In this document: positions 22,120 to 24,799 of the stretch, in pieces
How positions within the stretch are numbered: position 1 is the first letter of the stretch
Layout of the letters: every line of letters starts with the position of its first letter
Source of the DNA: Cyclobacteriaceae bacterium
GTDB lineage: Bacteria > Bacteroidota > Bacteroidia > Cytophagales > Cyclobacteriaceae
DNA length: 64,000 nucleotides
Assembly: GCA_019638285.1 (NCBI GenBank)
Contig: JAHBUB010000011.1
Location: forward strand, 41,321-105,320
Direction of reading: 5' to 3'
The notes under the pieces: model-generated
Database searches by the model: none
The model's input: only the letters and a program-made list of their open reading frames with translations
What the model was told of the DNA's origin: nothing
Made by a program: the position numbers and the translations under genes

Positions 22120-23247
22120 TTAGGCTTTGTATTTTTTTATCTTTTCACAAATGTAAAACAATTGATCATTATCCATTTCTGTGTGAATGGGCAGCGAAAT
22201 AACATTTTCAGAAAGTTTTTCGCTTATTGGAAAAGCCCCTTTCCCAATTCCAGAAATCTGGTAGGCTTTTTGAAAATGCAAAGGAACCGGATAATAAACC
22301 ATGGATGGAATGCCGTGTGACTCTAGGTATTGACGAAAATGATCACGATCAACACCTTTCAATTTCAAAGTGTATTGATGAAATACATGTGTGGATTTAG
22401 AATTCCTAAAAGGAGTAGTTAAAAAAGTTGTTTCTGAAAATTCCTTATCATAGAAATCAGCAACAGCTTGTCTATTACTTTCGTATGATTTTATATGTTT
22501 AATCTTTACATCTAAAATAGCGGCTTGCAGGGTGTCCAATCTGCTGTTTACTCCAATGAGGTCATGGTAATATTTAACACGCTGACCATGATTAGAGATG
22601 ATCCTAATTTTCTCAGCCAAAGCCTTGTCGTTAGTCACTAAAGCACCTCCATCGCCATAACATCCCAGATTTTTTGAGGGAAAAAATGAGGTGCACCCAA
22701 TAGTTCCCATCGTTCCTGCCTTCTTCACTGAGCCATCTTTAAATGTATACTGAGCACCAAAGGCCTGGGCATAATCTTCAATTACAAAAAGCTTATTTCT
22801 CTCAGCCACTGCCAATAAAGACTCCATATCAGCACATTGACCAAACAAATGAACGGGGACAATAGCAACTGTCTTTGGAGTGATTTTAGATTCAACCTGA
22901 TCCACATCTAGATTAAATGTATCTTCTTTAACATCCACAAACACTGGCTTCAGGCCCAACAAAGCAATCACCTCAGCAGTAGCCACATACGTAAAAACCG
23001 GTAGGATTACTTCATCACCCGGTTTAAAATCCAGTGCCATCATAGCAATCTGCAGCGCATCTGTTCCGTTGCCACAGGTAATAGCATAAGCGTCATTATG
23101 AAAATCTAATAATGATTTTTCAAATCGACTCACCTGAGGCCCCTTAATAAAAGCGGTTGTGTCAATGACTTCCTGAATAGCCTGATCCATTTCAGATTTA
23201 ATATGTTGGTATTGACCGTGAAGGTCAACCATAGAAATTTTCTTCAC
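22120..23247 (-). CDS. wbpE: WbpE-like UDP-3-keto-uronate aminotransferase
   Basis: The 375-residue DegT-family protein has CGNGTDALQIAMMAL near 58-72, PVFTYVATAEVIALLG, EDYAQAFGA at 157-165, and CTSFFPSKNLGCYGDGGA with Lys192 as the PLP lysine. These match WbpE of P. aeruginosa. It converts the C3 ketone made by WbpB into an amine using glutamate. A CATAG-rich repeat and a GxxExxY gene lie just upstream, between it and galE, so its transcription from the galE side must cross that element. Confidence 0.9.
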   Translation of the reverse strand: MKKISMVDLHGQYQHIKSEMDQAIQEVIDTTAFIKGPQVSRFEKSLLDFHNDAYAITCGNGTDALQIAMMALDFKPGDEVILPVFTYVATAEVIALLGLKPVFVDVKEDTFNLDVDQVESKITPKTVAIVPVHLFGQCADMESLLAVAERNKLFVIEDYAQAFGAQYTFKDGSVKKAGTMGTIGCTSFFPSKNLGCYGDGGALVTNDKALAEKIRIISNHGQRVKYYHDLIGVNSRLDTLQAAILDVKIKHIKSYESNRQAVADFYDKEFSETTFLTTPFRNSKSTHVFHQYTLKLKGVDRDHFRQYLESHGIPSMVYYPVPLHFQKAYQISGIGKGAFPISEKLSENVISLPIHTEMDNDQLFYICEKIKKYKA

Positions 23248-23261
23248 ACTCTTAAATTTTT

Positions 23262-23290
23262 AACCACATAGGCTCATAGGAAACATAGAG
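23262..23290. repeat. Left CATAG-rich repeat
   Basis: Three CATAG units are spaced 8-10 bases apart behind AACC. The first 27 bases match 23720-23746 in direct orientation at 24 positions and also mirror the right end in inverted orientation. Confidence 0.6.
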
Positions 23291-23294
23291 ATTT

Positions 23295-23711
23295 TTAATC
23301 GGGTAATCCGCGAAAGTATTCATTGACATAAGTTTTTTGTCCTTCCTTAAACAAATTAGCGCAGTTAAAGTTTATCAGTATTCCCTTGGGCTTCTCAAGC
23401 AACTTCATGTAAGTTAACAATTGAGCCTCGTGTATAGGCGCAATTACATCTACTGCCTTCAATTCTATCACAATTGAATCTTCTACAACAAAATCACAAC
23501 GCAGTTCTGCCTCCATGTCCAATCCTTTATAATTCACGGACACAATATGCTCAGAAAGAAATAGCAACTGCTTGATTGCAAATTCATGTTTCAGGCACTT
23601 GTGGTATACGCTTTCTAATAACCCCGGCCCCAAAGCTTTATGGACTTCAATAGCTGCGCCTACTATCTGGTAGGTTAGTTCATTTAGATATGTCTTGGTG
23701 AGTATTTCCAA
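23295..23711 (-). CDS. GxxExxY family protein (PD-(D/E)XK-like fold)
   Basis: I start this gene at the TTG at 23711, because codons further upstream are repeat sequence. The 138-residue product has AAIEVHKALGPGLLESVY, in which G30-L-L-E33-S-V-Y36 is the family GxxExxY motif. It also has Asp73 in CDFVVEDS and E83-L-K85 in IVIELKAV, the PD-(D/E)XK-type acidic/lysine set. Such proteins (TIGR04256) are common in Bacteroidota, often inside unrelated operons, and their function is unknown. It has no signal peptide. It shares no pathway with the sugar genes around it, and it is bracketed by repeats. Confidence 0.8.
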   Translation of the reverse strand: MEILTKTYLNELTYQIVGAAIEVHKALGPGLLESVYHKCLKHEFAIKQLLFLSEHIVSVNYKGLDMEAELRCDFVVEDSIVIELKAVDVIAPIHEAQLLTYMKLLEKPKGILINFNCANLFKEGQKTYVNEYFRGLPD

Positions 23712-23719
23712 TTTTTTTA

Positions 23720-23774
23720 AACCATATAGGCACATAGAAAACATAGCCTATGTGCTCTATGTTTCTATGTGGTT
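23720..23774. repeat. Right CATAG-rich repeat forming a long imperfect hairpin
   Basis: Bases 23720-23746 (AACCATATAGGCACATAG...) and 23747-23774 (CCTATGTG...TATGTGGTT) are imperfect reverse complements meeting at the centre. A transcript through here would fold into a hairpin between galE and the GxxExxY gene. The unit CATAG or CTATG occurs seven times in about 50 bases. Confidence 0.65.
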
Positions 23775-24799
23775 AATCCCCTAAGTCTTTTCTCCCATGC
23801 CCATGCATCACGCAAAGCATCTTTGGCAGCATATTGTGCCGACCAACCCAGCTCTGTTTGTACTTTGGCTGAATTAGCATAAGTCTTTACTACATCCCCA
23901 GCCCTCCTCGGCCCAATCTCGTAGTTCAATTTTACACCTGTCACCTCAATGAACTCCTTTACCAATTGCAAAACCGAGACACCTTGACCGGTACCAAGGT
24001 TGAAATATTGGTAATGCTCATCTTCATTTTTACCTAAAAGCTTATCAATGGCCTTTACGTGAGCTTGAGCTAAATCGACTATATGAATAAAATCCCTAAT
24101 ACAAGTTCCATCTGGCGTGTCATAATCTCCACCAAAAATGACAAGCTTTTTTCTAATGCCTATTGCGGTTTGCGTTATGTATGGAACAAGATTGTTAGGT
24201 CTATCAATAGGCAACTCTCCAAGCATTGCGCTAGGATGAGCCCCAATAGGATTGAAGTAACGAAGCGAGGTAACCTTCAACTTTTTATCAGCTCTTACCG
24301 CATCTTCCAATATTTGCTCACACATCTGCTTCGTGGCTCCATAGGGAGACTCCGCTTTTTTAAAGGGCGCTGATTCATCCACAGGGATCGAGTCCGGCTC
24401 ACCGTATACTGTACAACTTGAAGAAAAAATAAGGTTATTGACTTTATGCTCTTTCATCACCTCAACTAGCGTCAATAATGAATTAAGGTTGTTCTGATAA
24501 TACATAACCGGGTGCTCAACCGATTCTCCTACTGATTTGTAAGCTGCAAAGTGCATTACGCCATCAAGATCACCTTCTTTTTCAAATACTTCCTTTAGGA
24601 ATTTTCTATCCGCACAATCCCCCTCATGAAAAATTAACGATTTCCCTGTTATCTTTTCAATCCCTTCAAGAAGTGTTCTGTCAGACTTTGAAAAATTATC
24701 AATGATGACTGGTGTATATCCACTAGCGTACAGCTCAACTACCGTATGTGCACCTATATATCCAGCTCCTCCTGTTACAAGTATCTTTTTTAAAGTCAT
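23765..24799 (-). CDS. galE: UDP-glucose 4-epimerase
   Basis: The 344-residue extended SDR has TGGAGYIGAHTVVEL, FAAYKSVGESVEHP, SSSCTVYG and SPYGATKQMCEQIL (Tyr-x3-Lys), then RYFNPIGAHPS and GTCIRDFIHIVDLA, all standard GalE motifs. It interconverts UDP-Glc and UDP-Gal (or the HexNAc forms). Its ATG overlaps the upstream dehydrogenase stop by one base (TAATG). The C-terminus reads KRLRGLTT, of which the last residues and the stop are written by the repeat element, so the original end may have been different. Confidence 0.92.
   Translation of the reverse strand: MTLKKILVTGGAGYIGAHTVVELYASGYTPVIIDNFSKSDRTLLEGIEKITGKSLIFHEGDCADRKFLKEVFEKEGDLDGVMHFAAYKSVGESVEHPVMYYQNNLNSLLTLVEVMKEHKVNNLIFSSSCTVYGEPDSIPVDESAPFKKAESPYGATKQMCEQILEDAVRADKKLKVTSLRYFNPIGAHPSAMLGELPIDRPNNLVPYITQTAIGIRKKLVIFGGDYDTPDGTCIRDFIHIVDLAQAHVKAIDKLLGKNEDEHYQYFNLGTGQGVSVLQLVKEFIEVTGVKLNYEIGPRRAGDVVKTYANSAKVQTELGWSAQYAAKDALRDAWAWEKRLRGLTT

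Follow-up and report, generated by a model that had tools for sequence, protein, structure and literature searches.

Known Repeat-and-Enzyme Systems

The closest described counterparts of the unit analyzed here are the REPIN/RAYT systems. According to the available portions of the published accounts, their short arms are dispersed through the genome as inverted pairs, as single arms, and as tandem arrays of pairs (PMC3116915), and a genome can carry several distinct single-copy genes, each flanked by its own arm type (PMC3116915, PMC3733652). As far as the available part of one account extends, RAYT transfer between lineages is infrequent (PMC3116915). RAYTs are HUH/Y1 tyrosine transposases, and their arms carry a GTAG or CGTC tag.

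S23 (TIGR02436), a four-helix bundle protein, is encoded by a gene inside 23S rRNA intervening sequences. For the Coxiella intervening sequence, the portion of the report consulted uses the term selfish element and describes inverted repeats at its termini as well as tandem heptamer repeats (PMC4990558). MITEs are short, non-coding inverted-repeat units with a parental DDE transposon. Finally, Rpn nucleases (YhgA-like, transposase_31; PF04754) belong to the PD-(D/E)XK class. They have been linked to DNA mobilization, and the parts of the Rpn descriptions covered here make no mention of flanking arms (PMC5350276, PMC10327210).

Here, we focus on a unit carrying a GxxExxY gene. Within the literature searched, from which subscription journals and bioRxiv were largely missing, the GxxExxY name turns up in 2 papers and its accession is absent, and the accessible portions of the sources contain no link between GxxExxY and flanking repeats. 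We suggest, with slightly more confidence than doubt, that the unit belongs to a widespread kind of repeat-and-enzyme element, REPIN/RAYT-like but with an unrelated enzyme.

A Repeat-Bounded Gene Between galE and an Aminotransferase Gene

The window is the whole 64,000-nucleotide stretch of DNA analyzed. It derives from a Cyclobacteriaceae genome (G000; 3.98 Mb, 85 contigs, 99.4% complete) with 7 GxxExxY genes. The window gene occupies positions 23295–23744 on the minus strand (149 aa counted from the annotated ATG), and its frame matches the profiles TIGR04256 (134.6 bits, cut-off 35) and PF13366 PDDEXK_3 (129.7 bits, cut-off 22). The host genes of the insertion site, both named by eye and both on the minus strand, are galE upstream (23765–24799) and a DegT/WbpE-like aminotransferase gene downstream (22120–23247). 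Thus, unlike a 23S rRNA intervening sequence, the unit lies between protein-coding genes.

Three copies of one 27-nt arm bound the gene: a single arm on the left and a full inverted pair on the right. The left arm, downstream of the gene (23262–23288, plus strand), is AACCACATAGGCTCATAGGAAACATAG, with three CATAG words and AACC outermost. The right pair (23719–23774, 1-nt loop) consists of an inner arm upstream of the gene (23720–23746, plus strand; AACCATATAGGCACATAGAAAACATAG) and an outer arm beside galE (23748–23774, minus strand; AACCACATAGAAACATAGAGCACATAG on that strand). In each arm, AACC precedes three direct words resembling ACATAG, at spacings of 8 and 9 nt. The pair has a DNA fold z of -4.13, and its organization is that of gene-less units found elsewhere in the genus. 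The initial annotation had described 20-bp inverted repeats around the gene, interrupted by 9 bases, and a 27-base direct repeat with 24 matches, and both are borne out. Specifically, the 20-nt inverted match joins AACCACATAG to AAACATAGAG and is broken on the left side by 9 bases (GCTCATAGG), while the direct repeat (23262–23288 versus 23720–23746) is alike at 24 of 27 positions. A repeat search of the unit returns a 29-nt inverted pair at 79%, and an Rfam search returns matches only far below gathering scores.

galE takes its stop codon from the outer right arm (CTA at 23765–23767, TAG on the minus strand). As initially proposed, the right repeat thus writes the end of galE: the window protein terminates in ..AWEKRLRGLTT, whereas by reading, the relative G360, which lacks the unit, has ..AWEKDLNH. 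In G360, the galE and aminotransferase flanks (77% and 75% match) are adjacent, and the missing stretch corresponds to 23262–23785, its right end being uncertain by about 10 bases; G034 and others gave gapped alignments at galE, which were not used. The claim that the unit carries no transposase also holds, as the gene and its repeats form a transposase-free insertion unit for which relatives have empty sites. The gene does not sit at one place in all relatives, and other copies of the repeats exist, although UBA2338 (L018) shares the galE site with the window copy. Our reading is that these two genomes probably inherited this site together.

The annotated ATG of the window gene falls inside the arm, and L018, which is 88% identical, has ATG at the codon that is TTG in the window. 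Thus, translation probably starts at this TTG, near 23711, where the conserved core begins.

A Predicted Cas4-Like Nuclease

The AlphaFold model of the protein, built with 52 input sequences, has a pLDDT of 96.9 and a pTM of 0.90. Its nearest solved chain is Cas4 SSO0001 (E 8e-4, TM-score about 0.5), followed by Cas4 Pcal_0546 (E 1.6e-3) and, more weakly, by lambda exonuclease; the nearest Cas4 chains are 4ic1 and 4r5q. By sequence, no PDB chain matches the window protein, and the Cas4 profile scores fall below their cut-offs (PF01930, 19.4 bits against 22.7; TIGR00372, 14.7 against 65). Residues H21, G27, E30, Y33, D70, E80, K82, Q94, N111, and F112 are invariant in the 52 sequences, and Y98 is nearly so. 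We take these residues to represent the RecB/Cas4-type E, D, ExK, and QxxxY motif. The predicted fold is of the PD-(D/E)XK type, with the invariant D70, E80, and K82 as its D and ExK active site. The model is consistent with a predicted Cas4/RecB-like PD-(D/E)XK nuclease with invariant active-site residues. Departing from Cas4, the protein has about 135 residues and no cysteine among the invariant or nearly invariant columns, and thus no conserved iron–sulfur ligands. Unlike Rpn, it belongs to PF13366.

Repeats Flank Most Members of the Family

GxxExxY genes are present in 43 of the 58 genomes of the relatives set, the window genome included. The family set contains 165 loci: 7 from the window genome, 29 from relatives, 80 named GTDB-contig loci (the best 80 of at least 571 confirmed), and further genus loci, with fragments below chosen limits dropped. 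Removing duplicates (L021=L229, L022=L249, L024=L220, and L054=L055) leaves 161 loci, or 99 sites once loci with a common neighbor on the same side are merged. A flanking inverted or direct repeat (score at least 14, both 200-nt flanks scorable) exists at 115 of 149 distinct loci, versus 0 of 105 for far flanks taken 500 nt further out. Before duplicate removal, 119 of 153 loci were repeat-positive, compared to 29 of 1530 sequences obtained by dinucleotide shuffling of these flanks. By site, 68 of the 87 that are scorable have at least one repeat-positive locus. When the arm detector and repeat score are combined, 129 of the 149 loci show something, and 20 show no sign of a repeat by either test. 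An early control with mismatched pairs provided no clean null, since arms recur between genomes.

Besides Bacteroidota, arms occur on MAG contigs titled Chlorobiota, Ignavibacteriaceae, Pyrinomonadaceae (Acidobacteriota), Delongbacteria, and Neomarinimicrobiota; such titles may be wrong, and the Rhizobium-titled contig L068 is doubtful. Relatives of the window protein appear 8 times among 72,556 plasmid records and not at all among 50,697 phage records. Regarding the plasmid relatives, that of Gemmatirosa (Gemmatimonadota) has long hairpins on both sides, those of Bernardetia and Bacteroides finegoldii have CACAGAG-type arms, that of Sphingomonas has one arm, and the repeats beside those of Treponema, Prevotella, Persicobacter, and Fusobacteria are weaker or of another kind. 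Sphingomonas parapaucimobilis (L277) has its GxxExxY gene in the fabD–fabG interval, with a single arm and a gap of 2 nt to fabG; it is possibly a settled copy.

S23 genes possess comparable flanks. By the generic repeat score, inverted repeats of tandem short words accompany 15 of 28 S23 loci (L161–L190) and 0 of 28 far flanks; the AG-word detector is positive at 1 of 29. S23 genes were dropped as a negative control because of the 15 positive loci, and far flanks and shuffles were used instead. As with GxxExxY, a small gene is enclosed by inverted repeats built of tandem short words, and the likeness extends to location: in G025, G013, and G024, S23 genes occupy the metH–metF gap, an insertion spot common to both families. 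The differences are the protein, the words (for example, TTGAGATTTGAGTATTGAG), and the classical S23 location in rRNA. As a four-helix bundle, S23 has no nuclease fold, and thus such arms need no nuclease of their own. S23 and its arms may be a second system designed alike, or else a sign that something common to both families moves the arms.

The Words, Not the Spacers, Are Conserved

We compared 92 CATAG arms (76 distinct) from 46 loci, which were selected as CATAG-type. Word positions are nearly invariant and two spacers vary; shuffling the same sequence yields no CATAG arms. In 20 inverted pairs, the two arms agree at 393 of 440 word positions and at 30 of 100 spacer positions. When right arms are dealt anew, 40.4 spacer positions agree, with 493 of 500 such deals at or above the observed value, which suggests that the spacers of paired arms are, if anything, less alike than chance. 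Words that are alike and spacers that are not favor recognition of the words over a perfect base-paired stem. Single strands of the arms can still fold, with z from -3.5 to -14.6 in 6 chosen units. Many inverted pairs have G at the first spacer in one arm and A in the other, as if left and right ends were distinct.

These data bear on the notion that the unit functions at the RNA level, as S23 intervening sequences do: the arms would fold the segment out, RNase III would cut the operon transcript, and the insertion would be harmless. Such a role fits gene orientation. Specifically, with neighbor strands assigned by a plain open-frame rule and one locus counted per site, GxxExxY genes are co-directional with the upstream neighbor at 63 of 73 sites and with the downstream neighbor at 52 of 69, compared to 26 of 41 background gene pairs. 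It also has a precedent in Coxiella, where, in the portion of the report available, terminal inverted repeats, tandem heptamers before the S23 gene, and RNase III excision are described (PMC4990558). However, the spacers are mostly non-complementary between arms, so the stem would be interrupted; gene-less pairs exist elsewhere in the genome; and the nuclease would be left without a role. We consider the RNA-level reading quite improbable.

Each Protein Type Has Its Own Word

Both sides of a GxxExxY gene carry the same word class at 54 of 64 distinct loci, whereas shuffling gives a mean of 10.6 and a maximum of 21. Word classes follow our own rules: one majority word, plus regular expressions where the arm detector missed loci. 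In the window genome, the GxxExxY genes are flanked by CATAG (window gene), CGCAAAG (L002, and L003 on one side only), CACAGAT-like (L001), AGGATT/GTCTGAA-like (L004 and L006), and ACCAAG/ACAAAG-like words (L007). On a tree of 165 proteins, 131 of them word-labeled, 18 word changes are needed, versus a shuffled mean of 86.4. This tree is a quick one with few columns. The 34 unlabeled proteins are left out of the count, and reading frames containing an internal stop were either trimmed after an early stop or carried an X. The CACATAAG class is not clearly clustered on this tree (36 of 500 shuffles are as low).

Plain inheritance of sites could, by itself, produce the tree signal, so pairs of genes at different sites and in different genomes were compared. 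The two genes have the same word in 139 of 221 pairs at 70% protein identity or above, 505 of 1810 at 60–70%, 225 of 1116 at 50–60%, 133 of 2299 at 40–50%, and 11 of 2382 below 40%; a few named-locus pairs from one genome (for example, L045 and L088) are counted as different genomes. Within one genome, GxxExxY genes under 50% identical have the same word in 4 of 45 pairs. Thus, the word follows the gene type, not the genome. A stringent 28-nt pattern searched over 295 genomes of the class matches in only 4, because each GxxExxY type has its own word. The genome-wide look for further copies of the repeat, proposed at the outset, gives a gene-less copy on contig C31, with more in relatives, and the other GxxExxY types go with words of their own.

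Arms Without Genes

Of 20 arm loci fetched at a distance from intact genes, 19 contain no GxxExxY frame. The twentieth (L209, in G024) retains the last 36 codons of the gene between two arms. As with MITEs, internal deletion of a gene unit can leave a near-bare pair. In the window genome, the gene-less CATAG pair lies at C31:26437–26482 (L010); its AACC ends face inward, opposite to the usual pairs.

Arm number goes with the cognate gene. The 12 genus genomes with a CATAG-type gene, set at 53% or more identity to the window protein by chosen limit, hold 132 CATAG arms (3–31 each, arms at the gene included), and the 46 genomes without one hold 40, of which 16 are in G001. The association has p 1.8e-8, or 1.8e-4 when 4 arms are subtracted per gene-bearing genome. 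For CGC arms and the CGC-type gene, p is 0.0015 over the 36 genomes with a full gene list, with that list and the arm tables compiled by hand. All these p-values are optimistic, since the genomes are related and their arm counts non-independent. The reversed-pattern control gives a total of 7 over the 58 genus genomes. The exception, G001, has 16 CATAG arms (among them L205, L206, L208, L321, and L322) and no CATAG-type gene; the gene was possibly lost, or the CGC-type gene of G001 possibly acts in trans. Three further genomes without a CATAG-type gene (G028, G363, and G366) have 3 CATAG arms each.

Intact GxxExxY copies inside one genome are never near-identical (best, 71% protein identity; copies compared in 19 genomes). 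Thus, the gene itself seems not to multiply within genomes, while the arms seem to do so. The initial suggestion of a small mobile element is, in this respect, partly sustained: there is an insertion unit with empty sites, but it is apparently the arms, and not the gene, that multiply.

G030 carries a tandem array of CGC pairs. Inspection by eye shows AAATGCATTT, or a sequence much like it, directly beside many of its CGC pairs (L311–L319), mostly at one end. One G018 CATAG pair (L325) also abuts an AAATGCATTT-like sequence, which could represent a target preference, a duplication, or extra end sequence.

Could other machinery, be it a transposase of IS200/IS605-like or RAYT type or errors in host replication, move the arms, with GxxExxY a passenger caught between arm pairs? 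The same architecture, with other words, surrounds S23 genes, as though any small gene might be carried along; in G001, arms occur in the absence of the gene; and Y1 transposases occur in 49 of the 58 genus genomes. Yet, the number of arms does not go with that of Y1 transposases (Spearman 0.21, p 0.11), and G018, whose 31 CATAG arms are the highest count, yields no Y1 transposase match. Moreover, a passenger would give no reason for the word to go with the protein at different sites and in different genomes, nor for dissimilar GxxExxY genes of a single genome to differ mostly in their words. We judge the passenger reading unlikely.

The likeness to REPIN/RAYT covers dispersed inverted pairs whose number, apart from G001, goes with the cognate gene, as well as single arms, tandem pair arrays as in G030, and several distinct single-copy genes per genome with their own arm types. 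The differences are as follows: the flanked gene is a PF13366 member with a predicted PD-(D/E)XK fold, not an HUH/Y1 tyrosine transposase; the CATAG-type consensus is AACC plus three direct words, with no GTAG or CGTC tag; GxxExxY units cross distant lineages; and GxxExxY arms do not track Y1 transposase numbers. By analogy, the GxxExxY unit would resemble REPIN/RAYT in action while lacking two of its defining features, the enzyme and the arm.

Empty and Filled Sites

A second unit of the window genome (L002), in the metH–metF gap, also exists in G017, where the gene is decayed, and in G366 and G006, where it is broken. This gap was read in 29 other genomes, the ones with a fetched locus out of 52 showing a match. 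Of these 29, 3 are filled, 13 have 11–76 nt, 1 has 132 nt, 8 have other inserts, and 4 have no readable metH end. Some of the 13 short gaps contain short repeats of other words. In G357, G350, G365, and G352, the gap holds gene-less short repeats of other words (CGAATCAACAAATC, AATTTGAAAATTTGAAAAT), perhaps bare S23-type arms.

G035 and G007 are close (96% at metF). The CATAG unit of G035, which lies between mnmH and selD (names by eye), is missing in G007, and its flanks are 95–96% identical. A gene-less arm pair of G035 is missing in G007 too, along with about 50 further bases beside it; in this bare pair, as in galE, an arm ends a reading frame early. The mnmH–selD site is common to the CATAG-type genes of G021, G009, G011, G018, G031, G035, and L023, and G024 has a remnant there, while the CATAG-type genes of G006 and G027 sit elsewhere. 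Thus, 6 of the 9 CATAG-type genus genomes compared (G352, G355, and G359 being outside the comparison) share one older gene site, which speaks against the idea that the CATAG-type genus genes are independent insertions and indicates that gene movement is rare. G007 probably lost its copy of the unit. In our reading, the unit has likely moved or been gained afresh one or more times. Between MAGs titled Delongbacteria, Neomarinimicrobiota, and Flavobacteriaceae, identity of the unit DNA ends within about 35 nt of the arms.

Comparison of the galE junction among relatives, suggested at the outset as a check, yields the empty site in G360 and no convincing target duplication; the same is true of duplications at one bare pair and the units compared, where precise sites are few. 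The unit differs from MITEs in containing no parental DDE transposon.

The shared site also gives weight to the idea of a domesticated nuclease of DNA repair or recombination that binds or processes DNA at the arms, which recombination would have scattered with no dedicated movement. Invariant catalytic residues and the scarcity of plasmid relatives and lack of phage relatives in the records searched point the same way. On the other hand, presence and absence at defined sites, units common to MAGs of different phyla, and a gene remnant between two arms all resemble mobile DNA. We hold the domesticated-nuclease reading to be very doubtful.

How the Element May Work, and What It Means

GxxExxY genes typically sit between arms composed of three short direct words. 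Under the REPIN/RAYT-like explanation that we favor, the protein would read these words in double-stranded DNA, with one contact per word, and the nuclease would nick or cut at arm pairs, opening the DNA. Subsequently, an arm pair, or rarely the whole unit, would be copied or moved into new sites. Such sites may sometimes be the last codons of a gene, in which case the TAA or TAG of the arm would end the frame. The gene, mostly downstream of a co-directional gene, would probably be expressed from that gene's transcript. It would spread between lineages mainly by horizontal transfer, arm pairs would multiply within genomes, and decay would leave bare arms. Insertion at gene ends, of which there are two cases, and read-through expression fit an element that must spare its host. 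Our strongest reason for not placing greater confidence in this explanation is that S23 arms accompany a gene that does not encode a nuclease.

A bolder claim, which we advance tentatively and with somewhat less than even confidence, is that GxxExxY constitutes a new class of repeat-moving system. In such a system, a minimal Cas4-like nuclease would recognize three-word arms and spread their pairs, with one word per protein type, in at least six phyla as judged by record titles. If so, S23 genes could form another family built in parallel on this design, which would bring the spread of rRNA intervening sequences into the same question. The new class would also provide an agent for the dispersed CACAGAG, CGCAAAG, CATATAAG, and GTCTGAA-GGATT repeats, for which none is described in the literature searched.

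GxxExxY is a common family without an assigned role, and the matching of protein to word makes its function directly testable. If that matching holds, dispersed short repeats would gain an agent, and there would be a second route to REPIN-like elements, one using an unrelated enzyme. If true, the arrangement could also offer a view of Cas4-type nucleases acting at repeats outside CRISPR.
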